Positions 1 through 15,605 of a DNA stretch of 23,448 bases are shown here, one piece after another. Every line of letters starts with the position of its first letter. The first letter of the stretch is position 1. Under the pieces are notes generated by a model. That model did no database searches. It had not been told where the DNA came from and worked only from the letters and a program-made list of their open reading frames with translations. The DNA comes from a virus. The stretch spans positions 1 through 23,448 of IMG/VR virus record IMGVR_UViG_3300038660_000221. One strand, written 5' to 3'. The translations under genes and the position numbers were made by a program.

Positions 1-1629
1 CCGATGCTCGCATACTTCATTGACGGCATTGAAACCGACTGGACTGTCAAGTTCATCAACCGTTCCGTGGTCCCAGTACGGACAATTCTTGAAGACGAGT
101 TGGGGTCAACACGAGCACAGACTGGACCTGTTCCGTGGGCGGAAGCGCGCCAGCCGGAGTACGACTTGCCCCGCGACGTGTCTTTGATCTACACCGACGT
201 TGATCGGGATTACCAGCAAGGTTCAGCACACAAGAAGCGGACATCTGCGCCGACGGCGGCAATGTACGCGAAGAAGAACCAGACTATTGAGATGCCGATT
301 GTCTTCAACGAAGTGGAAGCAAGAGACATCGCTGAACGTCTTTTGTTCCAATCGTGGATGTCGCGCGACAGCGCCAAGGGAAAGCTCCCGTGGACGCACC
401 TCGACCTCGACCCCACAGACGTCGTAAACTTCTCGTTTGACAGTGGGCAGTCGCGTGTAACGACAGACCGTATTGCAAAAACCGACGTCGGCGCAAACTT
501 CGAGATTGACGTTGCGGTGATCCGATCCGGTGATCCAGTTTACGTTTCCACTGACGCAGCCGCTGTTGTTGGAAACGGTGTTCCGGGAACCAGCATCATC
601 ACGCCGGTATACTCTAAGACGTTCGTTTTCGATATTCCGCTTCTGGAAGACTACCACGATGTGTCTCGCACGTCGCAGCGCTACTATGCGGCGGTTGGAT
701 CAGATACGACTTCTTGGATGTCTGCCGAGTTGTATGATTCTCTCGACAACACATCTTTCGGTAACTTTGGCAGCGCCAATGTGGATGTCACTTGGGGACA
801 AATTATTGGTACGCCGCTTCTTCCCCCACGCGCGTTGTTTACCACAGACAAAGAGAATTCCATCACGGTGAATCTTTCTGTTGACAACGGCGACATTACC
901 TCGCAGACCCGCGATGCCATGGCGGCGTCCTACAAGCTCAACCGCGCCCTGATCTGGAATCAGTCCACCGGCTTGGCGGAGATTATCCGGTTCCAAGACG
1001 TTGTGGTGAACCCGGACAACACCGTCACGCTGAGCACGTTCCACCGTGGATTGCGCGGAACAGATTACATGGTGGACCGACACTCCGCTGGTGAATACTT
1101 CATCATGTTGTCCGACTCCGCCATCCTTCCGCAGTTGAACATTCTGGCGCTGATCGGAACGACAAAATACTACAAGGCCGTATCGCGCGGCGCACTGGTC
1201 GCCAGTGCCACATCCATCACTGTTCCGACTGTTGGTCGTGATCTGAAACCGCACGCGCCGGGTCAATTCCGCCGCGAGGATGACGGAACTGATTTGACCT
1301 TCCGGTGGAACCGTCGGACACGTATTGGCGGAGAGTGGAATGCTGCGGTCGGAACCGGAAACCCTGAAACCGTGCCGCTGAATGAAGACAGTGAAGCATA
1401 CGAGTTCTACTTGCTGCCCAACACCCCGACAGCTTTGGATGACTTCGATCCGGGGAACCCATCTACATTCTCCGACTTCCAGACTGTTGGTGTTGAAGAA
1501 GCGGTTGTTCCGGCAGCCACACTTACGGCGGCGGGGTACACGCTGGAAGACGATGTCTTTGCGGCTGTGTATCAATTGAGCGCCCAAGTTGGACGGGGCT
1601 TTGCACGCATCGGCACTTTGGCCGGATGA
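1..1629 (+). CDS. GTA gp15-like phage tail hub/tip protein, 5' partial
   Basis: The frame is open from base 1, so the ATG at 4 is probably internal and the N-terminal part lies outside the window; 542 codons are visible before TGA. The sequence resembles the C-terminal half of the Rhodobacter gene transfer agent gp15 / putative phage tail protein family. An early segment contains LPRDVSLIYTDVDRDYQQGS. A C-terminal segment contains RTRIGGEW followed by VPLNEDSEAYEF, which I recognise from the fibre-binding end of that family. In GTAs this protein forms the central hub/baseplate and anchors receptor-binding fibres. Location fits: it is immediately followed by fibre-like genes. There are no signal peptides or membrane segments. 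Family assignment is from recall of motifs; the exact domain borders are not resolved. Confidence 0.8.
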   Translation, partial: PMLAYFIDGIETDWTVKFINRSVVPVRTILEDELGSTRAQTGPVPWAEARQPEYDLPRDVSLIYTDVDRDYQQGSAHKKRTSAPTAAMYAKKNQTIEMPIVFNEVEARDIAERLLFQSWMSRDSAKGKLPWTHLDLDPTDVVNFSFDSGQSRVTTDRIAKTDVGANFEIDVAVIRSGDPVYVSTDAAAVVGNGVPGTSIITPVYSKTFVFDIPLLEDYHDVSRTSQRYYAAVGSDTTSWMSAELYDSLDNTSFGNFGSANVDVTWGQIIGTPLLPPRALFTTDKENSITVNLSVDNGDITSQTRDAMAASYKLNRALIWNQSTGLAEIIRFQDVVVNPDNTVTLSTFHRGLRGTDYMVDRHSAGEYFIMLSDSAILPQLNILALIGTTKYYKAVSRGALVASATSITVPTVGRDLKPHAPGQFRREDDGTDLTFRWNRRTRIGGEWNAAVGTGNPETVPLNEDSEAYEFYLLPNTPTALDDFDPGNPSTFSDFQTVGVEEAVVPAATLTAAGYTLEDDVFAAVYQLSAQVGRGFARIGTLAG

Positions 1630-1690: not shown

Positions 1691-3088
1691 ATGACGCTTG
1701 GTAACACAGAGTTTTTGGCCATCGAGACGATGGCTCCGAACGACAACGACAAGTACCTGATTTTCAATGATGGAATTCAGACGCTTGAGGATTCGTTCAA
1801 TCGGAAGATTGTTGTGGATACCTCTGCTGGCAACGTCACCCTGTTGCAGTCCGAACTGGTCGGAAACGTTTTCTTTGAGTGCACCGGTCACGTGGTCCCG
1901 CGCACACTTTTCGTACCGATTGAAATTGTTGGGTTCACCACAAACCCGACCAAGCGAACGTTGTTTGTCAAAAACGACGGCACACAACCGCTTACCATTG
2001 ACCACGTTGGTTCACCCGGAACCGACACCGTTCTCCAACCAACCGAGACCGGACTCATCTATGCCGACGGTACTGACATCATCACGGTGGCGACAGGCAA
2101 TCCAGCCGCTGGTGGTTCCACAGATTTTCTGGGCCTAACCGACACACCCGGAGCTTTTGTTGCCGGTAACAACGTTCGCGTAAACGTTGCCGGAACAGAC
2201 CTCGAATTTACGGATGAAGCGGCGGTACCTACTCTTGGTTCCGCGAACGAACAGTTGCGCGTGAACGGTGCAGGGACGGCGCTTGAATTCTTTTCGCAGA
2301 GCATTCACGACAACTCTGACACACCGGCGTCCATAGGCACCGCCGGGCAGATTCTTCAAGTCAACCCCGCCGCGACCGCTCTCGAATATGCCGCTCTGCC
2401 CGCCGTCTACACTACCGAGGTACAAGACGAAGGCGCTGCCGAAGTCACTGATCCTACGTTCTTCAACTTCATCGGGGCAGGTGTAACCGCCGCAATAAAC
2501 GGGGCAGGTGTTGACATCACGATCCCCGGCGGAGGGGCTTTCACCACACTCAGTGACACGCCAGCGAACTACACAGGCGCGGGTGGACAGAGTGTTCGCG
2601 TGAACGTGGGTGAGACCGCCCTCGAATACTTCACTCTTCCGCCCGGCGCGGCATCCATTGAGACGCAAGACGAAGGTGTACAGATCGTCGCGGCGACTGA
2701 TACGCTGAACTTCACTGGAACGCCGGTTACGGTAACGAACCCAGCCGCGAACGTCACCGAGATCAATATCGTTCCAACTCTTGTTCCTCTTGATTTTGTC
2801 ACCGATGCCGCAGCCAATCGGGTTGCGTCGAACTCGGATTTCAGCGGCGTAAGAATCATCGACTTCAACAGTGCATCGCCACAGACTTACACGGTCAATA
2901 CAGGCCTCACGGCCTCACAACCGGTGACTATCGTTCGCGCAGGTGCGGGCACACTAGAAGTCGTTGCAGGAGTCGGTGTGACAATCCAGTCTGCGCTTGG
3001 CAACACAGAACTTTCTGAGCAATTTTCGCACGCGGTGTTGACCCCACGCGGGCCGGATGTTTTCTACCTTGCAGGCGACTTGAGCTAA
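1691..3088 (+). CDS. tail-fibre protein with SDTP/ALEF repeats
   Basis: A 465-residue protein with a good ribosome site (AGGAG, 6 nt before ATG). It has an N-terminal region (about 1-140) likely to attach to the tail. A middle region carries imperfect repeats built on SDTP/TDTP, then AG..(V/L)RVN, then TALE(F/Y), at about residues 144-173, 181-200, 205-233 and 283-313. Between them are two copies of a second unit starting with QDEG (residues 245 and 326). Repeats of this kind are frequent in phage and bacterial surface adhesins and tail fibres. The C-terminal 100 residues look beta-rich and have no recognised enzyme motif. The stop codon overlaps the next start (TAATG), which suggests translational coupling. 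Function as a fibre or tip-associated adhesin is inferred from repeats and position. Confidence 0.7.
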   Translation: MTLGNTEFLAIETMAPNDNDKYLIFNDGIQTLEDSFNRKIVVDTSAGNVTLLQSELVGNVFFECTGHVVPRTLFVPIEIVGFTTNPTKRTLFVKNDGTQPLTIDHVGSPGTDTVLQPTETGLIYADGTDIITVATGNPAAGGSTDFLGLTDTPGAFVAGNNVRVNVAGTDLEFTDEAAVPTLGSANEQLRVNGAGTALEFFSQSIHDNSDTPASIGTAGQILQVNPAATALEYAALPAVYTTEVQDEGAAEVTDPTFFNFIGAGVTAAINGAGVDITIPGGGAFTTLSDTPANYTGAGGQSVRVNVGETALEYFTLPPGAASIETQDEGVQIVAATDTLNFTGTPVTVTNPAANVTEINIVPTLVPLDFVTDAAANRVASNSDFSGVRIIDFNSASPQTYTVNTGLTASQPVTIVRAGAGTLEVVAGVGVTIQSALGNTELSEQFSHAVLTPRGPDVFYLAGDLS

Positions 3089-3570
3089 TGTTCCACGTAT
3101 ACTCGGGGATATATGCATCTAGCGGCAGCATACCGCCACTGCCTCCCATCGTGGGTGCGCTGTCGTACCGTGCGCAGGTGCGCGCGAACTTCACTGCTGG
3201 TCCAACGATTATCGGCAGTGGGGCGTTCCCGCCAACCGTACTGAACTGGAACAGCCCCGTCATTGACGAGAACTGGAACTGGACACCGACCAGTGCTTTC
3301 GTCATACCTAATAACGTTCGCGTCGTGACGGTTTCTTCCGTCGTATATTTCGGGTCGGTTGCCGCAGATGCCGGTATGCTTATGGTATACAAGAACGGAA
3401 ATGAAGTGACCCGAAGAACGGTTGACAACCAGTTCCGGTTGCTCAACAGTGACCGTACGGTTCTCAGCGTACGGCCCGGCGATGAGGTAGAGATTTACGT
3501 GGCACTTCAAGCCAACAGAATCTTGGACCAGACACAGTCGTTCGTGCATATCGTAGGATACGGCCCATGA
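3088..3570 (+). CDS. small beta-sandwich virion protein, unknown
   Basis: A 160-residue protein with TAATG coupling to the preceding fibre gene and only a weak Shine-Dalgarno, so translation probably depends on the upstream gene. The C-terminal half reads V.YFGSV....GMLMVYKNGNEV...(V)RPGDEVEIYVAL. This resembles C1q/TNF-like jelly-roll modules, in which a KNG turn and a PGD turn are separated by strands. Similar KNG/PGD spacing occurs twice in the next gene, so the two proteins probably share a module. No catalytic residues or membrane segments are evident. The likely role is a small fibre head or accessory tip protein; the specific fold is inference. Confidence 0.55.
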   Translation: MFHVYSGIYASSGSIPPLPPIVGALSYRAQVRANFTAGPTIIGSGAFPPTVLNWNSPVIDENWNWTPTSAFVIPNNVRVVTVSSVVYFGSVAADAGMLMVYKNGNEVTRRTVDNQFRLLNSDRTVLSVRPGDEVEIYVALQANRILDQTQSFVHIVGYGP

Positions 3571-5504
3571 GCCTCACAATTATGAGCTTGACAGCCAACC
3601 ACGTCACCGGTGGTACGATCTCTACCATTGAGTGGGGGTCGGCTATTGAAGACGGTGGTGGGTTCTGGACAGAGCAAACTCCGACACGTGTGTATGCCCC
3701 CGTAGGTGTGCGCTATATGGAGCCGTTCTTCCGTGCGAACGACACAACCGATGTAGGTCTGGTGGATCAACAGGTGCGACTTCTGTTGAATGGGGTCGCA
3801 GTCGCGGACCTGATCCAAGACGACAACAATCACTCCGCTTATGGTATATCGTTCGGACTGTTCGAGGTGACGGCTGGGGACTACTTCGAAATCCAGACTC
3901 GGTCTTTTTCAACATCGTCCACGTACCAGCCCGGCGAAGCTTCCTTTGCACTGTCGTCACAAGAGCGCTTTGGTTTCGTTGCCGCCGACTTGGATGGGGA
4001 CACGGCACTAAGCGGAACCGAGACCACACTGTCGTGGCTGGCGCTGGACCCGGCTCTCGACAGCTTGGTAACCCACGATGGTACCACCGGGTTTGTTGCA
4101 CCATCGGAGTGCGCCTACGCCGTTGTCACCCTCAACGCGTCACTGGTATCGTTCAACGGAACGAACGGAGAACACCGACTCTACAAGAATGGCGTTGACA
4201 CCGGAGCTAGATTTGAGGATGCTACATCCCTTTGGGCACCCGGTGCGTGCTTCGGAATTATTGAGGCGGACCCCGGCGACACGATCACGGTGCGCTCTAT
4301 TGGAGCAGGGTCACTTGACGCGACCTATACACGCCTTACTATCGAATGGATTCGGTCTGCACAAGGTCAGGACACCACAGGCTTTAACGGGTTCGCCGCG
4401 AACTTGACACCAGTAGGTTCTTGGGGTACACTGCGCCGTAACTCTGCCTACTCTGGTCCAGCCATTGCCGTGGATAACAACATTTCCCCCGGCAGCCCAA
4501 TTGACGTGTTCTTCCAAGACGACGGCAAAGTCCGTGGCCCAATTCCGTACGGGGCCAATGGGCGAGTTGTTACAATATATGACCAGTTCGGTTCCGCAGA
4601 CCTTCTCGGGGCAACTTCCGACGACGTCCGAATCGTGCGGGAAGACGGGGCCGAGTACGACACTTGGCAGCTTAGATTTATTAGTGCATCATCAGACCAA
4701 CTGGCGACGACCGAGACCACAAGCGGCGATCTGATAACGCCAGCATCCTTCGAGCTTCCGACACTTCTGTTTGCGGCGAGCATCCGACAAGCTGATGAGT
4801 TTCAGGCGTTCGACTCTGGAATTTTTGGTGTAGAAGGGGGTGCTGCGCAGTATGCTTATGCTCTTATTTCAGACTGGACTAATGCTAGACGCGGCCTGAA
4901 ATGGGAACTTGACGACAACGGTGTGTCCGTGTTCAACAATGGCAACCCGGCAACAAGTCCGATTGCCGGTGGGCACCTCTGTGTAATCGGCGACCTGACC
5001 CAAGGAGTCAATTTCGCATACGGATACCTTAACGGAGAACTTGGAAACTCATACGCATACAACCGACCGATTAGCTACCCGGTAGGGGCACCACTTCAAT
5101 TGGGGGACACCGCTGGCAACAATGCGTGGCGCGGACGGTTCATTGAGTTGAACATCTTTGACCACACAACACCCGCTACGGCGCAGAACATCGCCGACCT
5201 GAACGAAGCCTTGAAAGAATTCGGATACCGCAATCGTGAAGGTGTCAGAGTCAAGGAACAAAACGCTTACGCAGTGACTGGAACACCAGCCACTGGCGTT
5301 GTAGCGCGAGAACAGTACGGGTATGTTCTTACCGGATCAGCGGGGGCTGGTGTCGGTGTGCGGGATCACCTTAACTATGTCGTAACTGGGGCGGCTGCCG
5401 CAGGAATCTCTGTACCAGAAGACCTCGGATACGTGGTAGTTGGTGCCAGCCCGACAGGACTTAGTTCGCCCAGACAGCGCATACACGCAATCATCGTACC
5501 ATAG
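3567..5504 (+). CDS. large multidomain fibre/lectin-like protein with 18-residue C-terminal repeats
   Basis: A 645-residue protein overlapping the previous gene by ATGA, with AGGA 8 nt before the start. Two jelly-roll-like modules are seen at about 40-130 (LLLNGVAV ... VTAGDYFEIQ) and 135-265 (LYKNGVDTG ... ADPGDTITV). Residues about 290-375 (AYSGPAI ... FFQDDG ... VVTIYDQFGS) resemble the lectin-type module seen in many phage fibres that carries a YDQSG-like motif. Residues about 395-555 look like a concanavalin A/LamG-type domain ending with ELNIFD and a short helix. Residues 559-645 are five tandem units, four of exactly 18 residues and a shorter last one. It is probably a receptor-binding or fibre component; domain calls are by eye. 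Confidence 0.65.
   Translation: MSLTIMSLTANHVTGGTISTIEWGSAIEDGGGFWTEQTPTRVYAPVGVRYMEPFFRANDTTDVGLVDQQVRLLLNGVAVADLIQDDNNHSAYGISFGLFEVTAGDYFEIQTRSFSTSSTYQPGEASFALSSQERFGFVAADLDGDTALSGTETTLSWLALDPALDSLVTHDGTTGFVAPSECAYAVVTLNASLVSFNGTNGEHRLYKNGVDTGARFEDATSLWAPGACFGIIEADPGDTITVRSIGAGSLDATYTRLTIEWIRSAQGQDTTGFNGFAANLTPVGSWGTLRRNSAYSGPAIAVDNNISPGSPIDVFFQDDGKVRGPIPYGANGRVVTIYDQFGSADLLGATSDDVRIVREDGAEYDTWQLRFISASSDQLATTETTSGDLITPASFELPTLLFAASIRQADEFQAFDSGIFGVEGGAAQYAYALISDWTNARRGLKWELDDNGVSVFNNGNPATSPIAGGHLCVIGDLTQGVNFAYGYLNGELGNSYAYNRPISYPVGAPLQLGDTAGNNAWRGRFIELNIFDHTTPATAQNIADLNEALKEFGYRNREGVRVKEQNAYAVTGTPATGVVAREQYGYVLTGSAGAGVGVRDHLNYVVTGAAAAGISVPEDLGYVVVGASPTGLSSPRQRIHAIIVP
5241..5501 (+). repeat. 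coding repeat: 18-residue (54-nt) units in the large fibre protein
   Basis: Residues 559-576, 577-594, 595-612, 613-630 and 631-645 align without gaps. The pattern is a start glycine, often glutamine at position 7, an aromatic at position 10 (9-10 region), a hydrophobic triplet, then glycine at 14 and a small/Pro-rich turn. Examples are GVVAREQYGYVLTGSAGA and GISVPEDLGYVVVGASPT. The same pattern ends the protein at 6515-7894. DNA identity between units is modest, so they are old or diversified repeats and not recent copies. Confidence 0.85.
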
Positions 5505-5513
5505 GATACTGAC

Positions 5514-6515
5514 ATGGCAATTCTTATCGCAACAAACTCCCCTCTTGAAATTGGTGGAACGCTTTCAACAGCCGCCACAGGTCGCGACAGTGACTTTGCG
5601 CCTACCGCTGTTTCGGTACTCATCAACGATGATGGTGGTGGTAATCCGTTTGGCCTCCAAACCGACGAAGGCGCAACAGACACAATCTGGACACACTTCA
5701 CGTTTCTCTCTAACAACGATGGGTTTATCAACCAGAACGCCAGCGGTTACATGATGACCATGTACGATGCGCAAAACCGTATCATCGCAAGAGTTGACTG
5801 GAACGGTGGAGCCCGCGCGCAGGTGTACCAAGCAGGGACTCCGACGGTTTCTGATCAGTTGATCAACTTTACGCAGGACCTGATATTCACTTTCGACGTC
5901 CGCGTCATTGTGAACCCGACCGAGATCACGATGGACATCTTCATCAACGGAAGCTCTGTTTCACTGTCGCGTGCAACCGTCCCGAACACGGAAAACAAGA
6001 CTGTTCCGAATAAATTCATTTGGGATAATTTTGACCTTTCGTGGGACCTTGCTATTCCGGCAACATTCTACTACTCGGAATTCATCATCACCGACGGTGA
6101 GGACACACGCGGGTGGCGTTTGGCTACACTGGAACCGAACGCTGTCGGCGGCGAGACTGGATGGATTGGCGATTGGAACGAACTGGGGGATCGTAACGGG
6201 TCAACCGCCTCGACCAGTGATGTTGACGCCGCCCGTGTATCGTCGAACCTAACACCATACGGTGGTGGTGTGGGTGCTGCCGGTATTCGCGCAGTGATCC
6301 CGACGGCAATCGCCCAACGGGGCACAACGGGTGTGTCCCAATTGACACAGTTCGTCAGAATTGGTGGAACAAACTACGACGGTACCCCAGTGTCTCTGGT
6401 GGCGGGAGAACGCGGAAACTTCCGAGAAATTTACGAGGTTAACCCCGCAACCGGACTTGCTTGGTCAACGGGAGACCTCGCTGCACTTGAAATTGGACTG
6501 CTGGTCAACACCTAA
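5514..6515 (+). CDS. tandem paralog 1, lectin-like/TDGEDTR virion protein
   Basis: 333 residues; AGGA (5503-5506) lies 7 nt before ATG and overlaps the stop of the preceding gene region. It starts MAIL..(N)SP and has GRDSDFAP near residue 25, as do its three neighbours. The N-terminal ~190 residues look like a concanavalin A-type beta sandwich, closing with YYSEFIITDGEDTRGWRLAT (motif Asp194). The C-terminal domain has the signature IAQRGTTGVSQLTQFVRIGG, then NPAT..AW, then LEIGL. It resembles a widespread phage structural domain with an ADEDTR motif followed by RG..G.Q.L.......GGTDY. The molecular function of that family is unknown to me; a fibre or receptor-binding role is inferred from context. 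The stop overlaps the next start (TAATG). Confidence 0.65.
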   Translation: MAILIATNSPLEIGGTLSTAATGRDSDFAPTAVSVLINDDGGGNPFGLQTDEGATDTIWTHFTFLSNNDGFINQNASGYMMTMYDAQNRIIARVDWNGGARAQVYQAGTPTVSDQLINFTQDLIFTFDVRVIVNPTEITMDIFINGSSVSLSRATVPNTENKTVPNKFIWDNFDLSWDLAIPATFYYSEFIITDGEDTRGWRLATLEPNAVGGETGWIGDWNELGDRNGSTASTSDVDAARVSSNLTPYGGGVGAAGIRAVIPTAIAQRGTTGVSQLTQFVRIGGTNYDGTPVSLVAGERGNFREIYEVNPATGLAWSTGDLAALEIGLLVNT

Positions 6516-7894
6516 TGGCTATTCTTTTTGTATCAAACTCTGCGGACGAACTGGGGGCAGCGCTCCCAACCACGTCCGCCGTCGGTCGTGACAGCGACTA
6601 TTCCCCCAACAGTGTTTACATTGATGGGATTCGGTCTCTGCCGTACGACAAAGACCGGTACATACAAATAGAACTTGACCCGGCAGTCGGCGATCTGTGG
6701 GTTCACTACAGGGTCAAACTTGGCGACAACGCCGACGACGGTAGCGCCGATGGATACTACATGCAGTTTTTGGATGCGGACAGCAGCCGTGTCGCATACC
6801 TAGATGCCAACAACGGTGACCTTCGCGCCGCAGCGGACGGCGATACCGTGGTACTCGGATCACCCTTGTTCATTGTCGCTGCTGGGGGTGAATACACCAT
6901 CGACATGCGTGTATCTGTTGGGGCAAACATCGAGATGGACCTGTACGTGGATGGAGCATTTGTCCACGCAACAGCCATTGCAGCCAACACCGGCGGTAAG
7001 GGTGTTCCTGTTCTTCTCAGCTTTGACCATGTGGACGTCGCCAGAAACAGCATCATTTTCGACACCGTCTATTATTCGGAAGTCATCATCACGGACGGTG
7101 AGGACACACGCGGGTGGCGTTTGGCAACACTTGACCCTGACGCGGTCGGCGGTCAAACTGATTGGACTGGCGGTTTTGCAGAACTCGGGGACATCGACGG
7201 TTCGTCGTGGATCAACACAAATGTTGACGGCGCACGCGTGTCTTCAAATATCTCAGCTTACACCGGTGAACCCGCCCCGACAAGTGTGCGCGCAGTCATT
7301 GCATCAGCTACGGCACAGCGTGGGCAATCTGGCGTCGCGGACTTGGCTCAGTTCTTGCGCATTGCTGGCACAGATTACGACGGGGCGCTTAACGAATTCG
7401 TCATAGGTGAGCGCAAGTTTATCCAAGAGGTATGGGGTGACAATCCCAACACCGGGTCGAGTTGGGTTGTTGCCGATCTGGCGTCTCTTGAGGTTGGACT
7501 TGTCGCAACGAACACACCGCCCACACCAATCGAACTTCAAAACCAGCGCATGTTTGGCGTTGTCACACCACCACCTGTACCAGTGGAGTTGCAAAACCAA
7601 CGAATGTTTGGTATTGTAGGCGGACTACCATCCGATGTGGCTCTTGCGCAGCAGCGGATGTACGGAATCCTCGGTAGCATCGTTGCAGACGTGGGACAGG
7701 CACATCAGAGACTGTTCGCAATCGTCGGTTCACCGGCAACCGGTTTCAAAGTGCAGACTCAAGATACCTTTGCCATCGTTGGTGGACCACCAACTGGCGT
7801 CATGGGTAGTACCCAAGAAAACTACGTTGTCGGGGGCAGCACTAGCTCTGGCATATTCACCACATCCCAAGAAACTTACGTGATCGTGACATAA
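6515..7894 (+). CDS. tandem paralog 2 with added 18-residue repeat tail
   Basis: 459 residues. The first ~335 are colinear with paralog 1 (MAIL start, GRDSDYSP, TDGEDTRGWRLATL with Asp194 at the same residue number, RGQSGVADLAQFLRIAG, NPNTGSSW, LEVGL). Where the other copies stop after the final NT/KT, this one continues into seven 18-residue units (338-459), like those ending the protein at 3567-5504. A 32-nt stretch around the TDGEDTR motif is identical to paralog 1 (6093-6124 and 7094-7125), pointing to duplication or gene conversion. The start is coupled to the preceding stop (TAATG) and has no clear Shine-Dalgarno. It is probably a virion adhesin or fibre component; the repeat tail may form a stalk or attachment segment. 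Confidence 0.65.
   Translation: MAILFVSNSADELGAALPTTSAVGRDSDYSPNSVYIDGIRSLPYDKDRYIQIELDPAVGDLWVHYRVKLGDNADDGSADGYYMQFLDADSSRVAYLDANNGDLRAAADGDTVVLGSPLFIVAAGGEYTIDMRVSVGANIEMDLYVDGAFVHATAIAANTGGKGVPVLLSFDHVDVARNSIIFDTVYYSEVIITDGEDTRGWRLATLDPDAVGGQTDWTGGFAELGDIDGSSWINTNVDGARVSSNISAYTGEPAPTSVRAVIASATAQRGQSGVADLAQFLRIAGTDYDGALNEFVIGERKFIQEVWGDNPNTGSSWVVADLASLEVGLVATNTPPTPIELQNQRMFGVVTPPPVPVELQNQRMFGIVGGLPSDVALAQQRMYGILGSIVADVGQAHQRLFAIVGSPATGFKVQTQDTFAIVGGPPTGVMGSTQENYVVGGSTSSGIFTTSQETYVIVT
7526..7891 (+). repeat. coding repeat: seven 18-residue (54-nt) units at the C-terminus of paralog 2
   Basis: Units begin at residues 338, 356, 374, 392, 410, 428 and 446. The first two are nearly identical (ELQNQRMFG in both) and also similar in DNA, so they duplicated recently. 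Later units drift toward the style of the 3567-5504 protein (GFKVQTQDTFAIVGGPPT). Gln at position 7, an aromatic at position 10 and Gly at position 14 are the best conserved residues. Confidence 0.85.
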
Positions 7895-7896
7895 AA

Positions 7897-8883
7897 ATGG
7901 CAATCCTCTTCGTTAACAACTCACCGCTGCTCTTCGGCAACTACCTCACGACGTCCACGCTGGAACGGGACTCCGCATACTCGCCTTACGGGATCATAAC
8001 AGACGCTGTATTTGACAATCAGTCGTCCTCTCCGATGCGCCCGAATGTATTTATTGACGCAGCAGTCGGTGACCTGTGGGTACACTTCCGGGCGCGTTCT
8101 TCGGGTGACGTATTTGACTCTGACTCCGACGGCGACCTTTTTGAAGCCTACGACGCAAACGGGGACCTTGTGGCGAGGTTGGACGCAACCAACGGTGACT
8201 TCCGCGCGGAAGCCATCGGGGACACGAATGTTTTTGGGGCGTCTACTTTCACGTGGGCGGACAACCAGAACAAAACAATCGACATGCGCATTGCCGTTGG
8301 GGCAAACGTCGAGGTGTTTGTCTACGAAAATGGTACATTGGTGTCTTCTGCAAGCGCCGCGAACACCGGGGCAAAATTGATCCCGGTTGATTTGATCTGG
8401 CGCGTTGTTGACTTGAACGACGTCTCCAACCCCGGTGAATGGTACTTCTCTGAATTCATCGTCACTGACGGGGAAGACACACGCGGCTGGCGATTGGCGA
8501 CACTGGAAGCCGCCAGCGCCGGTTTCTACACGGATTTTGTGGGTGACTTCAACCAACTGGGAGATCGACAACTGGTATCCGGCGCTGCGTCGGCTACTGA
8601 TGGTGATCGAGTATCGTCCGGACTTTCCGCTTATGGTGGCGCTGCATCCACCGTGCGGGCTGTCGTGAACGTTGCAAATGCCCAGCGCGGTCCAGCGGGG
8701 ATATCCCAACTGACTCAGTTCCTTCGGATTGGTGGTACGGATTACAGTGGTGCGACAGAAACTTTCGCCACAGGTGAGAAGAAACAACTAATTCAGGTAT
8801 GGAACGATAACCCAGCAACGGCGGTGCCGTGGGTTACCGGCGATCTCGCTACACTCGAAATGGGCCTGTTGGCTAACACATAA
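7897..8883 (+). CDS. tandem paralog 3, lectin-like/TDGEDTR virion protein
   Basis: 328 residues, starting 2 nt after the previous stop with no Shine-Dalgarno, so expression likely depends on re-initiation. It has MAILFVNNSP, ERDSAYSP, GDLWVHFRAR, then an N-terminal beta-sandwich ending in FSEFIVTDGEDTRGWRLATL (motif Asp191). The C-terminal domain has AQRGPAGISQLTQFLRIGG, then NPATAVPW, then LEMGLLANT. It is closest by eye to paralogs 1 and 2. It ends at the family's domain border and lacks the repeat tail. Function is unknown beyond a probable virion surface role. Confidence 0.65.
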   Translation: MAILFVNNSPLLFGNYLTTSTLERDSAYSPYGIITDAVFDNQSSSPMRPNVFIDAAVGDLWVHFRARSSGDVFDSDSDGDLFEAYDANGDLVARLDATNGDFRAEAIGDTNVFGASTFTWADNQNKTIDMRIAVGANVEVFVYENGTLVSSASAANTGAKLIPVDLIWRVVDLNDVSNPGEWYFSEFIVTDGEDTRGWRLATLEAASAGFYTDFVGDFNQLGDRQLVSGAASATDGDRVSSGLSAYGGAASTVRAVVNVANAQRGPAGISQLTQFLRIGGTDYSGATETFATGEKKQLIQVWNDNPATAVPWVTGDLATLEMGLLANT

Positions 8884-8895
8884 GGATAAACACAA

Positions 8896-9882
8896 ATGGC
8901 TATTCTAGCAGTAGCAGCGCTCGCAAGCGACTTCGGCGGCACAGCAACCAGCACAACCACAGCGACAGGTCGAGACGCGGCTTACTCTCCAAGCAACATC
9001 GACATACCAGTCTCTTCTGAGACATCCACGTTCTTGGCGTTGGACAGAATCGACGTTGCAGCTTCCGGTGTTGTATGGGTACACTTCCGCCTGCGCTGGG
9101 GGGATACTGTCGATGCGCAAGCCGGCGGTAATCTGTTCACCGCTCGCGATGCAGGCGGCAATGCCGTCGCGAAAATTGACATGGTGAACCAGCAAGTCAG
9201 TGCCGTGGCTTTTGGGGACAGCACGGAAACCGGTGTGTATAACACCGTAACCTCTAACCAAGAGGTAACGTATGACCTGATGATCGACAGGTCTGGCGCA
9301 ACCACGATTGTATCCCTGTACAAAGATGGATCGAACTTCCCAGAGTCAACCGCTGAGGCGGCGAACTTCGTTGGGTACGGGGTCCCCCGAGACCTGATCT
9401 GGGAATTTGACGACGTCACAAATGCTTCCAGCACCATGTACATGAACGAGGTCATTGTCACCGACGGTGAAGACACCCGTCTGTGGCGTCTGGCGACGCT
9501 GGAACCGGACACCAATGGCACGTACAATGCGTGGACCGGGGACGTGACTGAGCTTGGCGACCTTGATCCACTGACTGTTGCCACCGCCGACACCGATGGT
9601 TTGCAACAATCTTGGAACCCCTCCGCCTACGGCGGCACCGTCGGACCTCTTCGCGCTGTCTGTGTGGGCGGACGAGTGAAGCGCGGACTTGTTGGGCTCT
9701 CGCAGGTTGAACAGTTCATCCGTGTTGGTGGAACCGACTACCCCGGTACTGTTCAAGGACCAGCAAGCGGTGGCGGGTCTCTGACCGTTCTCGACGTCTG
9801 GGATACAAACCCAGCCACACTGGCACCGTGGGCGTCATCCGCTCTGGCAACAATCGAGGGTGGAGTAACCGCGAAAACTTGA
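8896..9882 (+). CDS. tandem paralog 4, most divergent copy
   Basis: 328 residues with its own ribosome site (AAGGA 8882-8886, 9 nt before ATG). The start is MAILAVAALASDFGG, with GRDAAYSP near residue 26. The motif is NEVIVTDGEDTRLWRLATLE (Asp190), with Leu in place of the Gly found in the other copies. The C-terminal domain keeps KRGLVGLSQVEQFIRVGGTD and NPATLAPW. The final strand reads IEGGVTAKT. It is the most different of the four and last in the array, and a terminator-like hairpin follows. Like its neighbours it is probably a tail-tip or fibre component; no enzyme motif was recognised. Confidence 0.62.
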   Translation: MAILAVAALASDFGGTATSTTTATGRDAAYSPSNIDIPVSSETSTFLALDRIDVAASGVVWVHFRLRWGDTVDAQAGGNLFTARDAGGNAVAKIDMVNQQVSAVAFGDSTETGVYNTVTSNQEVTYDLMIDRSGATTIVSLYKDGSNFPESTAEAANFVGYGVPRDLIWEFDDVTNASSTMYMNEVIVTDGEDTRLWRLATLEPDTNGTYNAWTGDVTELGDLDPLTVATADTDGLQQSWNPSAYGGTVGPLRAVCVGGRVKRGLVGLSQVEQFIRVGGTDYPGTVQGPASGGGSLTVLDVWDTNPATLAPWASSALATIEGGVTAKT

Positions 9883-9947: not shown

Positions 9948-10739
9948 ATGACCTCCATCCGAAACCACGTCGTAGAGTTTGCGGTCGATGCCCCATCACC
10001 CAATCGTAGTGGTTTGATCACGCCCAAGTTCATCGTCATGCACTACACCGCAGGCTGGACAGCCCGCAGTGCAGTCAACACGCTCACGAACCCGGCGTCG
10101 CGCGTCAGCGCGCATGTGACAATTGATCAGAATGGTGTTGTGTATCAGCACGTTCCGTTCAACGTGAAGGCGTGGCATGCTGGTCCGTCTTCCCACATGG
10201 GATACAGTGGGCTGAACAGCCACTCTGTCGGCATAGAGATCGTGAACCCCGGATACCTGACGCGGGTTGATGGAAATCGTTTCCGTGACGCTTACGGTCG
10301 CGTGCACACCGCCGCGAACGTCGGTCCTGTTGTCGAGTCCCGGCACGCACGTGTCGGCAGCGGCACGTACTTCTGGCCCGTCTACCCCGAGGCGCAGCTT
10401 GAAGCTGTCGAAGAACTTACGCAGGAACTGTTGCAAGAATACAACATTCTCGACATCGTGACCCACGAAGAGATCGACACACGCGGCTGGAAGACAGACC
10501 CCGGCCCGGCGTTCCCGATGAACCGTTTCAAGCGTCACCTCGGTCACCGCGATCTGGACGGCGACACCTACCAAGTGACCGCCAGTGTCTTGAACGTGCG
10601 CGGTGGACCCGGATCGAATTACTCCGTCGAGGGGCAAGTGAAACGCGGTGACGTTGTCACTGGCACCGACAAAAACGGGGACTGGGTGAAGATCGACGAA
10701 GACGGCTGGGTCCATGGGGGATACCTGCGCCGCATCTGA
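9948..10739 (+). CDS. endolysin: N-acetylmuramoyl-L-alanine amidase (Amidase_2) with SH3b domain
   Basis: 263 residues with AAGGA 6 nt upstream of ATG. It would cleave the amide bond between N-acetylmuramic acid and L-alanine in peptidoglycan. The Amidase_2 core is clear: FIVMHYTAG (candidate zinc ligand His32), WHAG (His77), NSHSVGIEIVNPG, THEEI (His173) and KTDPGPAF (Lys182, Asp184). The spacing is that of zinc amidases of the T7 lysozyme/AmiD type. Residues about 208-263 are a bacterial SH3 wall-binding domain (VTASVLNVRGGPG ... GDWVKIDEDGWVHGGYL). There is no signal peptide or TM segment, so release should need a holin, for which a candidate lies at 11495-11830. Confidence 0.93.
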   Translation: MTSIRNHVVEFAVDAPSPNRSGLITPKFIVMHYTAGWTARSAVNTLTNPASRVSAHVTIDQNGVVYQHVPFNVKAWHAGPSSHMGYSGLNSHSVGIEIVNPGYLTRVDGNRFRDAYGRVHTAANVGPVVESRHARVGSGTYFWPVYPEAQLEAVEELTQELLQEYNILDIVTHEEIDTRGWKTDPGPAFPMNRFKRHLGHRDLDGDTYQVTASVLNVRGGPGSNYSVEGQVKRGDVVTGTDKNGDWVKIDEDGWVHGGYLRRI

Positions 10740-11833: not shown

Positions 11834-12196
11834 ATGCTTTCTGCACTGAGCTTTCGGGCGAACCCAAAGGTCCTGATTCGGGGCGCGATCATAGTTCTGG
11901 CGCTGGTTATTGGCCTCAAGGTTTGGGGCTTTGTTGAGACCGCGATTGAGAACCAGAATCGAATCATCGAACAAGAAGTCGTGATCCAGTTGAAGGATGA
12001 CGAAATTGAAACGCTTCAAGGTGTGATCGAGCAGAACGCAGAATCTGTTCGCATTGCCGAAGAGGCAGAAGCTGAGATAGAGGCGCTGGAAGCGGAGCTT
12101 GAAACGATCCGAGACCGCGCCCTGACAGCAGGAGATGATAGAGATGGCCCACTGGCTCCCGTCCTACAAGACACTCTTCGCGCTCTGCGCGATTAG
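11834..12196 (+). CDS. i-spanin (Rz-like)
   Basis: 120 residues with AGGA 6 nt before ATG, 3 nt after the holin stop. A single N-terminal TM segment (about 14-34, LIRGAIIVLALVIGL...) is followed by a long charged coiled coil (about 36-98) with heptad-like E/I/L spacing. The C-terminal DGPLAPVLQDTLRAL is typical of Rz-type inner-membrane spanins. It would pair with the overlapping o-spanin to fuse inner and outer membranes in the last step of lysis, as expected for a Gram-negative host. Confidence 0.82.
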   Translation: MLSALSFRANPKVLIRGAIIVLALVIGLKVWGFVETAIENQNRIIEQEVVIQLKDDEIETLQGVIEQNAESVRIAEEAEAEIEALEAELETIRDRALTAGDDRDGPLAPVLQDTLRALRD

Positions 12197-12455
12197 TGTT
12201 CTCGTCGCATGCGGGGAACCCCCGGCGGTGCGGGCACCCGTTATCCAGACGGAAGTCGTGATTCCGAATGTCGATCCGCGCGCACTGGTGTGCCCACAGA
12301 TTCCAATTCCACCGGACCCTGACACGGCAACGCAGCGCGACGTCGCAGCATACATCCCAACATTGATCGAGGTGGCAGAACACTGCCGTCGTGATCTCGC
12401 GACCGTACGCCGTACGTTGGAAGCGGCAGCAGCGTCGGCAGCTAATCGCTCCTGA
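12144..12455 (+). CDS. o-spanin (Rz1-like) lipoprotein overlapping the i-spanin
   Basis: 103 residues, starting inside the i-spanin gene in another frame (overlap 53 nt). Two in-frame ATGs exist, at 12135 and 12144. GGAG at 12131-12134 abuts the first and is 9 nt from the second, so 12144 is preferred. The N-terminus is a signal with a lipobox LVAC, giving lipidated Cys23. The mature part contains Pro-rich PQIPIPPDPD and a helical tail. A short lipoprotein encoded out of frame within or beyond Rz is the classical Rz1 arrangement. Confidence 0.8.
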   Translation: MAHWLPSYKTLFALCAISVLVACGEPPAVRAPVIQTEVVIPNVDPRALVCPQIPIPPDPDTATQRDVAAYIPTLIEVAEHCRRDLATVRRTLEAAAASAANRS

Positions 12456-13192: not shown

Positions 13193-13456
13193 AAGGTTTC
13201 TTTTTAGCACATCCGGTGCCTCGTTGTCAAGATATATGACGAGTTCTGTGTACCCACCGACGAGGCGGACACCGTGGTATATGATGGGGATGCTCGACAT
13301 CTTTGCGTGCGCCGCTTCCTCAAGAAGTTGTGACTTCGTAAGGGTGCGGATGCTGTACGGCAGCCCCCGCGCGTCAAGCGCCTCGATTGCCTTGGTACAC
13401 CAAGGGCAATCGAAGTGGGCTTGTTTGATGATCGTGTATCCTATCGAATCGGGCAT
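13181..13456 (-). CDS. glutaredoxin
   Basis: 91 residues; the ATG lies inside the end of the RNR gene (overlap 16 nt) with GAGGG about 7 nt upstream. It has a thioredoxin fold with active site C17-P-W-C20, cis-proline region SSIPIIY (Pro57) and GGYTEL (67-72). The CPWC centre is near the classic CPYC and fits a dithiol glutaredoxin. Directly downstream of RNR, it may re-reduce the reductase's C-terminal cysteine pair (Cys677/Cys682), using host glutathione or thioredoxin reductase. The physical link suggests this; the partner is not proven. Confidence 0.88.
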   Translation of the reverse strand: MPDSIGYTIIKQAHFDCPWCTKAIEALDARGLPYSIRTLTKSQLLEEAAHAKMSSIPIIYHGVRLVGGYTELVIYLDNEAPDVLKRNLDTA

Positions 13457-15498
13457 GCGCCGCCCTCACAATCGTCGAGGTCCAGCATCTCTGCACTGTC
13501 TGTTCCTGTGAAATCCACCGGCAGAAGGTTGTCCGCATAGGCGCGGAAGGATGCTTCGGTCACCGGTGTTTGTGGGAGATACTGGTAACCCAGCTTCTTC
13601 GCCACGCCCGCCGGGTCCCGGACCATTGCGACCGGGTCCGGGCGGTACAGGAAGGACACGCCGACGTAGCTGTCCCAGTTCTCCGCCAACCAATCGACGA
13701 TCTCTGTCACTTCATCCGGGCTGTAGTAGATGGTGATCGAGCAGTTGTGATCGACGTAGTTCTCTTGCAAGAGCTTGTAGCGCTCAAGCTGTGCGACAGC
13801 CGTTTCCTGATTGACCTCGACGGTGGTTCCGTCAACGTCAACCTTGTCGAAGTCCATGTTGTTGTACTCGACCGGGATCACGACCAGCATGGACTCGGCG
13901 TTGTTCGGCACGGGCTCAATGCGGTATCCCGCGTCCGTGCAAGCCTTCAACAATGGGTCCTTCAAAGGAATGATGACCCGGATTTCCAAGAACCGACCCA
14001 GCGGCAGGTGCGCCCCCGGCGCGACCTCATCCCCGATCAGGCCAAACACTTTCGACTGTGTTCCCGACGGCTTGATGGTGGTTACGAGTTGAGGACGAGG
14101 CGTCCCCAGTTCGTCAGCCATGCCGTTGGCCCCGTCCTGTGCGGCCTTACGAAGGTCCCGAAGTGCGTCTGCATCCTTGTGGAATTCCCAACCCACGATG
14201 CCGGTAAGCCCGACGCCGCACAGGCGGAGAAATTCATTCAGTTCGTGCCACGTGCGCTGCAAGACACCGTCGTCGAGATTGACGCAGGTCTGGCGGTAGT
14301 TGGCGCGTGCGACCAACCATGCCGCGCGGTGCAGCCCGTCTTCGTTCCCGTTGAACCGGTTGACGGCGATCTCGACAAGGTTACAGAACGACTTGTCGCC
14401 CAGCAGAATCTCGGCACAAGGGTTGACGCCTTTGAAGTACGGCGCGCGTTCTAGCGCCGCGAGTGCGTTGATGAAGCCCGGCTCGGAGCCGCCGCCCTTC
14501 TGGATGATCTTGAAGATTTTGTGCAGTTCGCGCTTGGTTGGCTTGTGGTAAAAAAGCAACGAATTGTTCGACATCGACCGGTGCCACTTACCGTTTTCGT
14601 TGTGATCTTTCTTCGCCAACGCGAAGTCTTCCCACTCGGGCTCGCCGTATGGGTACAGCGCGATCTCAGCGGAACGACGGCTGGACAGAATTGTTCCCAA
14701 CCAGTTCTCGATGTCGAGGATGTCGATTGCCGTCAGGAGCTTTCCTGCGGACTTGTTCATGACACCGACGATGCCTTCGAGGGCGATGACAAGTTGCCCG
14801 TCGCCAGACGAAATCCAACCGTACCCGGACAGGCGGTATCCTGCTGGACGAATTTCAGAGAGGTCGATGATCAGTTTTGTCGCGCGGCCTTTGAACGCCA
14901 AGAGCTTGCCGAACAGCTTTGCCCATGCTTCCGCACTGTCTCCGACCTTGATGGTCCAGACGCCAGTGATCTTGTCAAAAGTTTCAACGTTGTCTGCGTG
15001 CCCTTTGAGGGCCGGGTCCGAAATCGGATTGCCGTCGGCGTCATGCTCAAGGACTTTCGATGAGCGGATGATGTCGATCTCGTCGATGTGTTGCGTGAAG
15101 CCGTTGAGAACGCCGACATTTGCTTTGAACCCGACGCCGCAGCCTTGTAGCAAGAGCCAGATCGTGTCAACAACATCGTGAACGGTTTGCACTTCGCCGA
15201 AGGCACAGTTGAACTGTGACGCTTCGCGAGACTTGGCGATGTCTGTGCCACCAAGCCACCGGGTCCGCCCGGATACGGTGACCTTGCGGTCCATGAAAAG
15301 ATCGTAGAGTTCTTCGAGTTCCGCCTTCTGCATCAGGTCGAGAGGGGCGTTCTGTGCTCGTTCCCACAGCCATGTCTGGTGTTCGATAACACGCCGCCAT
15401 GCTTGCTCGGGAGTTTCAAATTCTGTACCATTGGCATTCAGGGGGCGAAGGTAGGTGCGGCGCTCAACGATTTGAGCGAGTACGCTTTGTTGCGTCAT
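13441..15498 (-). CDS. nrdJ: class II (adenosylcobalamin-dependent) ribonucleoside-triphosphate reductase
   Basis: 685 residues from ATG 15498, supported by GGAG about 8 nt upstream; an in-frame ATG at 15588 gives an implausible Cys-rich leader. It reduces ribonucleoside triphosphates to dNTPs. NPCAEILL (Cys361, Glu363) with Cys372 eleven residues on, and a C-terminal C-EGGA-C pair (677/682), reproduce the spacing of the Lactobacillus leichmannii-type monomeric enzyme (radical cysteine, its Glu and the redox pair). FNCAF (Cys98) is the likely partner cysteine. Somewhat shorter than the ~740-residue prototype. No small-subunit or activase gene is needed. It implies the phage relies on host B12. 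Monomeric, oxygen-independent class II enzymes are common in roseophages. Confidence 0.93.
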   Translation of the reverse strand: MTQQSVLAQIVERRTYLRPLNANGTEFETPEQAWRRVIEHQTWLWERAQNAPLDLMQKAELEELYDLFMDRKVTVSGRTRWLGGTDIAKSREASQFNCAFGEVQTVHDVVDTIWLLLQGCGVGFKANVGVLNGFTQHIDEIDIIRSSKVLEHDADGNPISDPALKGHADNVETFDKITGVWTIKVGDSAEAWAKLFGKLLAFKGRATKLIIDLSEIRPAGYRLSGYGWISSGDGQLVIALEGIVGVMNKSAGKLLTAIDILDIENWLGTILSSRRSAEIALYPYGEPEWEDFALAKKDHNENGKWHRSMSNNSLLFYHKPTKRELHKIFKIIQKGGGSEPGFINALAALERAPYFKGVNPCAEILLGDKSFCNLVEIAVNRFNGNEDGLHRAAWLVARANYRQTCVNLDDGVLQRTWHELNEFLRLCGVGLTGIVGWEFHKDADALRDLRKAAQDGANGMADELGTPRPQLVTTIKPSGTQSKVFGLIGDEVAPGAHLPLGRFLEIRVIIPLKDPLLKACTDAGYRIEPVPNNAESMLVVIPVEYNNMDFDKVDVDGTTVEVNQETAVAQLERYKLLQENYVDHNCSITIYYSPDEVTEIVDWLAENWDSYVGVSFLYRPDPVAMVRDPAGVAKKLGYQYLPQTPVTEASFRAYADNLLPVDFTGTDSAEMLDLDDCEGGACPIR

Positions 15499-15605
15499 TC
15501 TTATGTCTCCAAGACAAAAAGGGACATGCACGCAAGGGAAGCATTTCGCTTGCGCAGCGATGTGATTACAGGAGTTTTGGGAGTCCATGCATTGGACGTC
15601 TCAGC

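Follow-up and report, generated by a model that had tools for sequence, protein, structure and literature searches.

Four diverged paralogues of a probable tail-module virion protein and a shared 18-residue repeat in a marine bacterial virus

Introduction

The roseophage DSS3P8 has been described as CbK-like, and two gene-12 homologues separated by an unknown protein were noted in its genome (PMC4961962). Among the virion proteins of the N4-like roseophages RPP1 and RLP1 determined by mass spectrometry are gp82 of both phages and gp81 of RPP1 (Chan et al. 2014; PMC4193335 Table 4). Salmonella phage Chi carries a single curly fibre of 220 nm (PMC4342425), and the gene forming this long fibre has been reported as not experimentally shown (PMC10399903). 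Here we describe four consecutive genes (positions 5514-9882) in a 23,448-base record of a marine bacterial virus (IMG/VR record IMGVR_UViG_3300038660_000221), which is probably a fragment and is referred to below, at its full length, as the window. With roughly even confidence we read them as four divergent versions of a single virion protein of the tail module, which would act as alternative or co-displayed adhesin heads on a conserved socket, mounted through repeats.

Results

Four old paralogues in the tail module

The four products cover approximately positions 1-327 of the 328 positions of PHROG 6368, a family whose function is annotated as unknown, and their end-to-end alignment contains about 80 invariant columns. 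The MAIL start, RD..(F/Y)(S/A)P, TDGEDTR and NPxT are common to all four copies. The pattern D.E.T.GWRL..L occurred three times in the window and in none of 100 shuffles, and the shared motif is therefore not a product of chance. The full-length matches (Table 1) and the alignment confirm the four consecutive genes with shared motifs proposed in the original prediction, which had been made from the DNA sequence before any database search. We are confident of the family membership, the paralogy and the tail-module virion class of these genes.

Pairwise identity ranges from 33 to 48% among the four copies, and third positions agree in only ~39-54% of the codons for identical residues, synonymous sites being close to saturated in every pair. 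The duplications are therefore old, and a recent duplication of the four copies was ruled out on the same ground. In a tree of 28 proteins the window copies formed one clade (ultrafast bootstrap, UFB, 95/approximate likelihood-ratio test, aLRT, 93; a clade in 98% of the bootstrap trees), with copy 4 branching outside copies 1-3 (UFB 94/aLRT 85). The predicted grouping of copies 1-3 apart from a divergent fourth is upheld by this tree; the wording "near copies" is not, in view of their mutual identity of 40-48% and the saturation.

All four open reading frames (ORFs) are uninterrupted, full-length and on the plus strand, with no silent truncated cassettes. Copy 1 starts 9 bases after the gene of a fibre-like protein of 645 amino acids (aa), hereafter the carrier; the ATG of copy 2 overlaps the stop of copy 1 (TAATG), and gaps of 2 and 12 bases follow. 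A scan for terminator-like sites found none on the plus strand inside the array, its overall total being at chance (13 vs 11.7 expected), and a single operon is the natural reading of this packing. The order fibre - family gene - amidase is the same in DSS3P8, RcXuper, MD18 and DSS3_MAL1 (MAL1 below), which assigns the array to the tail fibre module position. The tail hub itself, next to which the array had been placed, ends at 1629, and three genes (1691-5504) lie in between.

By annotation and sequence, gp82 of RPP1 and RLP1 is a member of the family and RPP1 gp81 is its repeat-bearing neighbour. The published mass spectrometry concerns these homologues (PMC4193335), and it agrees with the earlier assignment to virion genes; a place of the array in the tail-tip or fibre operon is likewise supported. 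That the array products belong to the virion tail module is well supported.

Table 1. Coordinates of the array, its repeats and junctions, and the flanking genes in the window
Feature	Position	Strand	Basis
Tail hub protein, 3' part (RcGTA gp15-like)	1..1629	+	Phage-tail_3 + Rcc01698_C, Pfam E 9e-26 and 1e-13
Fibre-like protein, DSS3P8 gp053 homologue (DUF2793-like)	1691..3088	+	phrog_18179 E 1e-30
160-aa protein	3088..3570	+	ORF between the two fibre genes
645-aa fibre / carrier protein	3567..5504	+	residues 273-535 homologous to DSS3P8 gp054, tblastn E 1e-21
Carrier C-terminal array, about five 18-aa repeats (Y-[AV]-V-x-G ... G-V), terminal strand-like stretch	5232..5501	+	lag 18
Paralogue 1, 333 aa	5514..6515	+	phrog_6368 E 2e-66
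Domain-junction motif DGEDTRGWRLATL, copy 1	6093..6130	+	sequence
Paralogue 2, 459 aa, phrog_6368 + repeat tail	6515..7894	+	phrog_6368 E 9e-68
Domain-junction motif, copy 2	7094..7131	+	sequence
Copy 2 tail, about seven 18-aa repeats, same type as 5232-5501	7511..7891	+	lag 18
Paralogue 3, 328 aa	7897..8883	+	phrog_6368 E 2e-74
Domain-junction motif, copy 3	8467..8504	+	sequence
Paralogue 4, 328 aa, most divergent	8896..9882	+	phrog_6368 E 4e-63
Domain-junction motif DGEDTRLWRLATL, copy 4	9463..9500	+	sequence
Endolysin (amidase + SH3), first lysis-cassette gene after array	9948..10739	+	Amidase_2 E 2e-29, SH3_3 E 1e-11

A variable, predicted lectin-like half and a conserved half

The AlphaFold2 model of copy 2, built on an alignment of 37 sequences, reached a predicted TM-score (pTM) of 0.70. 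Residues 1-332 are beta-rich, mostly at a predicted local distance difference test score (pLDDT) of 70-96; the repeat tail is largely disordered, its last repeat forming a strand at low confidence. Neighbours among solved structures (PDB) were partial and mixed, ConA/CBM-like, and a PDB sequence search with the family profile returned only chance-level 2S albumin-type matches. The BFVD neighbours are phage proteins, with a TM-score (target length) of up to 0.89; those matching over the whole domain pair include proteins of a Roseovarius phage, Vibrio VpV262 and Serratia JS26 (TMt 0.74 for the JS26 member), and a protein of Hafnia Enc34 gave a weaker fold match. The predicted fold is suggestive of a variable lectin-like N domain followed by a conserved C domain, and thereby supports the lectin-like N-terminal domain and the one shared fold claimed before.

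The two domains have diverged at different tempos. Identity among the window copies was 33% in residues 1-185 vs 50% in residues 186-328, a difference with a 95% interval of 9-25 points, and the early and mid classes of orthologues in related roseophages, described below, show 49% identity in the N domain vs 73% and 76% in the C domain. The few invariant columns of the family (W62, D130, T198, G212, G219, N310, P311, T313, W317 and G328) sit mostly in the linker and the C domain. This contrast fits an exposed variable head on a conserved socket, and the sequence comparisons argue, with moderate strength, for putative adhesin heads that share a socket domain.

Lectin-like sandwiches are common structural folds, and the fold might serve assembly instead of host recognition, the paralogues capping or stabilising places on the fibre or the tail tip. 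In DSS3P8 and RcXuper the mid copy is located between the two DUF2460 distal-tail genes; family members therefore go with several tail parts, which is in favour of such a decorating role. The N domain is nevertheless the variable half in every class, as expected of an exposed recognising part, and one structural role needs no four divergent copies at one place, which makes decoration an unlikely explanation. Much less probable still is an enzymatic role as a glycan hydrolase, as suggested by the annotation "glycoside hydrolase" of the homologues in RcMenchie, RcKickapoo, RcTiptonus and RcDurkin. No hydrolase profile matched the window copies (Pfam, NCBIfam) or 37 members of the family (Pfam), and this reading was rejected for want of profile support; the position of the invariant columns and the mixed PDB matches also speak against it.

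A further possibility, already raised as a reservoir for recombination in the original prediction, is that the genes encode alternative adhesins, one or two of which are used per particle, and that exchange at the conserved linker reshuffles the N heads over evolution. At the domain junction a stretch of 32 bases is identical in copies 1 and 2 (6093-6124 = 7094-7125), and a run of at least 10 identical codons, as present there, was reached in 1 of 2000 codon-usage simulations. Furthermore, the C-domain tree unites the window copies (91/95) and the N-domain tree does not, the sister pairs being copies 1 and 2 in the former and copies 2 and 3 in the latter. The N-domain trees are poorly resolved, however, and are explained equally well by fast evolution and by swapping; elsewhere synonymous sites are near saturation in every pair, and all four copies are full-length and open. 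The junction identity may represent one footprint of exchange or conversion, which is no proof of routine swapping. This footprint and the discordant trees are what remains of the proposed reservoir, which appears doubtful as an account of the row.

The 18-residue repeat of the carrier and of copy 2

Copy 2 extends beyond the family domain by about 126 C-terminal residues of 18-aa repeats, which the fibre gene upstream of the array, that of the carrier, shares (typical units QNAYAVTGTPATGV and QRLFAIVGSPATGF). This feature had been missed, and the description of the array as four single-domain-pair proteins holds except for copy 2. Autocorrelation peaked at lag 18 in both arrays, with a score of 1.85 in the carrier (shuffled maximum 0.36) and 2.15 in the copy 2 tail (shuffled maximum -0.08). 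Both arrays were hit by the repeat profile, the copy 2 tail at E 4e-34, with units from both window arrays in the training set.

Because the more divergent repeats in RPP1, RcMenchie, MD18 and MAL1 escaped a narrow pair profile, a position-specific matrix in a leave-one-genome-out scheme was used for the association of the repeat with the family. The best-scoring repeat ORF directly adjoined a family gene in 14 of the 19 record sets (the window, DSS3P8, RcXuper, MD18, MAL1, RPP1, DFL12phi1, RcMenchie, L016, L056, L058, L089, RpAliso and Polewnik) and the second-best one in 3/19 (L018, L057 and L061), with weak scores in RpAliso, L089 and L057. Among the 1834 ORFs of the complete DSS3P8 genome, gp054 and gp049 scored highest, and both adjoin a family gene. 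Repeats also occupy the N-terminus of DUF2460 distal-tail domains or the stretch immediately preceding them (DSS3P8 gp049, RcXuper gp64 and Polewnik gp56). In locus L058 (2074-6836) the family domain is fused behind another domain and the next gene, a 923-aa tail gene, opens with repeat units, an arrangement which may constitute an independent link between family and repeat.

The repeats could alternatively form a short self-assembling trimeric shaft of triple beta-spiral type, the association with the family reflecting the shared fibre operon only. The 18-aa periodicity with alternating hydrophobics and Gly is consistent with this, and the disorder of residues 340-446 in the copy 2 model is what would be expected of such a shaft when modelled as a monomer. 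Nevertheless, some carriers possess only two units (DFL12phi1 orf48), a shaft is hard to picture at the DUF2460-side repeats or at the N-terminus of the L058 tail gene, and the association holds across different operons and phage types. We consider this reading improbable.

Copy number and position in related phages

DSS3P8, RcXuper, MD18 and MAL1 each possess three family genes, far apart, at an early position (near tRNA genes), a mid position (tail-tip module) and a position after the fibre; two family genes are present in RpAliso, and either one or two in N4-like phages. In the 28-protein tree, support of 100% was obtained for a clade of early copies and for a clade of mid copies, and the fibre-position copies of the relatives do not resolve as one. 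The protein that separates the gene-12 homologues of DSS3P8 is gp048, the mid copy. A tandem pair of family genes directly follows a carrier ending in three repeats in locus L056, from an uncultivated virus genome. Where the closest sequenced relatives have one copy the window has four, as counted within the 23,448-base fragment, and the window is unusual within its family in holding four tandem copies at one place. The statement that most phages carry one such protein is roughly right, given 1-3 copies in the relatives, the tandem pair of L056, and the 4-5 tandem remote homologues of Chi-like phages described below. IMG/VR scans with single proteins (copy 3 and the mid class) yielded no relatives, and in a scan of GTDB genomes with the narrow pattern A2 none was confirmed.

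Tandem rows in Chi-like phages

Five consecutive genes of the same overall fold (316-427 aa) are present in JS26 and four in Enc34 (ORF33-36), between hub/fibre and lysis genes or in the equivalent place, and the JS26 row is followed by a protein of 707 aa and the Enc34 row by one of 668 aa, both with a periodicity of 25-26 aa. Phage Chi has chi_072-075, then a 630-aa protein (lag 25) and then the lysis genes. The row corresponds to phrog_2448/10924 and the repeat protein to phrog_7226, all annotated as function unknown. Remote homology connects the row to the window family (hhalign 96.6%, E 6e-10, 192 columns), with the Loktanella pCB2051-A member, which matches both, as a bridge. One JS26 member was matched by 163 phage records, most of them, among the matches listed, at three places. 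The window copies had no match to phrog_2448, and given this and the remote homology only they are therefore not filed as members of the Chi-like row. What the two share is the layout: paralogues of the same fold stand in tandem between the hub/fibre genes and the lysis genes, with a repeat protein adjacent. The Chi-like rows, with four or five tandem genes in the corresponding position, leave the view of such arrays as an unusual kind unsupported. Loci L099 (6007-10264), L100 (29-1921, phage Chi), L096 and L097 contain these rows of four or five unannotated paralogues and the 630-707-aa repeat protein.

Genome context and neighbouring genes

The window runs from the tail hub through the DUF2793-like fibre, the fibre/carrier and the family genes to the amidase and an Rz-like spanin, after which opposite-strand genes encode dUTPase, a thioredoxin-like protein, ribonucleotide reductase, thymidylate synthase and a deoxynucleoside monophosphate (dNMP) kinase. 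This order matches that of the 146-150 kb roseophages DSS3P8, RcXuper, MD18 and DSS3_MAL1. Against phage records the window DNA gave short matches only, at 77-86% identity, to RcXuper, MAL1, RpAliso and Caulobacter phage Seuss, and none to Chi-like phages in a check of Casjensviridae membership. The hub gene matches phrog_4271 (E 4e-116) over profile positions 801-1307 of 1309; the match begins at 801, and the 5' part is therefore cut off by the window edge. The product of 1691..3088 is 31% identical to DSS3P8 gp053 (E 5e-53). The 160-aa gene at 3088-3570 is without counterpart at this place in the compared relatives, which pass directly from the gp053-like to the gp054-like gene. The carrier has a weak, sub-threshold LamG-like match (Laminin_G_3, E 8e-4), and its lectin-like domain recurs at 7551-8867 of L098, in a locus with baseplate-like genes; L098, the sole result of the carrier scan, contains no family gene and no repeats.

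Downstream of the endolysin, two short plus-strand genes (11834-12455) overlap, each in its own frame, and a match to an Rz-like spanin family was obtained for the second of them (12135-12455); the two may be an overlapping spanin pair. Between 12455 and 13048 the Rz-like genes pass directly to dUTPase, where the relatives have an integrase and a repressor-like gene in between; given this, the window phage may belong to a strictly lytic lineage. The ribonucleotide reductase (13441-15588, minus strand) is a single 715-aa gene (phrog_367), whereas genes for an alpha and a beta subunit are annotated there in DSS3P8, RcXuper and MAL1; the window enzyme may belong to another class than that of the relatives.

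Discussion

The arrangement that we favour, adhesin heads mounted on the tail through repeats, would work as follows. A fast-changing N-terminal lectin-like sandwich, joined via the conserved DGEDTRGWRLATL linker to a conserved C-terminal domain, would be the surface-recognising head, and the C domain its common socket. Attachment of the heads to the tail fibre would be by way of the strand-like 18-aa repeats at the C-terminus of the carrier (3567-5504), and the repeat tail of copy 2 might serve as a branch point carrying further heads. A virion could in this way present various heads simultaneously, or the gene row could supply it with alternative heads, with wider or stronger adsorption as the outcome. 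Receptor binding and joint use of all four copies, which had been envisaged for the array before, are plausible.

Several observations weigh against this arrangement. A second AlphaFold2 run on copy 2, based on 10 sequences, gave a poor model (pLDDT 58.5) in which the placement of the last strand was not recovered. No repeat-bearing neighbour of the family gene was found in 2 of the 19 record sets (Loktanella and L060), nor at the other position in N4-like phages (RD-1410W1-01 type) or in a group of uncultivated virus genomes (L073-L087). The repeat units were first picked by eye beside family genes, on which most of the loci were centred. The 25-26-aa repeat of the Chi-like phages agrees with the 18-aa repeat in arrangement, with no demonstrated sequence homology.

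If the repeats do mount the heads, a set of "hypothetical proteins" becomes a testable module of heads, each combining a variable lectin-like part with a conserved socket part, and a repeat partner; the number and mix of heads could be read from the sequence, and one phage displaying several specificities at once would be explained. The layout shared with Chi suggests a modular way of mounting different sticky heads on one tail. Strand-repeat scaffolds dressed with paralogous lectin-like heads, one per repeat, might even be a general, undescribed tail-fibre design of roseophages (including N4-like ones) and of Chi-like flagellum-binding phages, a generalisation that we put forward very tentatively. 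As a speculation, the 630-aa repeat protein and the four paralogues of Chi would make its flagellum fibre: 630 residues at about 0.34 nm correspond to about 214 nm, near the reported 220 nm. On the view that repeats mount the heads, the row and the repeat protein would supply candidate genes for this long fibre, or for parts of it, in Chi-like phages.

Among known systems, the PHROG 6368 proteins of roseophages (DSS3P8 gp055/gp048/gp014, RcXuper gp70/gp63, MD18, DSS3_MAL1) belong to the same family end to end, and the fibre-position copy of these phages likewise stands beside a repeat-ended fibre gene; unlike the window, they have three dispersed copies, none of which was seen with a fused repeat tail. 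Locus L056 differs in its two copies and in its gene surroundings. The N4-like RPP1 and RLP1 resemble the window in the family member gp82 with a repeat-bearing neighbour (RPP1 gp81), and differ as podoviruses with a single copy at that place. The Chi-like phages (Casjensviridae: Chi, Enc34, JS26) share with the window four or five tandem paralogues after hub and fibre and before the lysis genes, in a row beside a repeat protein; their repeat, in contrast, has a 25-26-aa unit and its own gene of 630-707 aa after the row.

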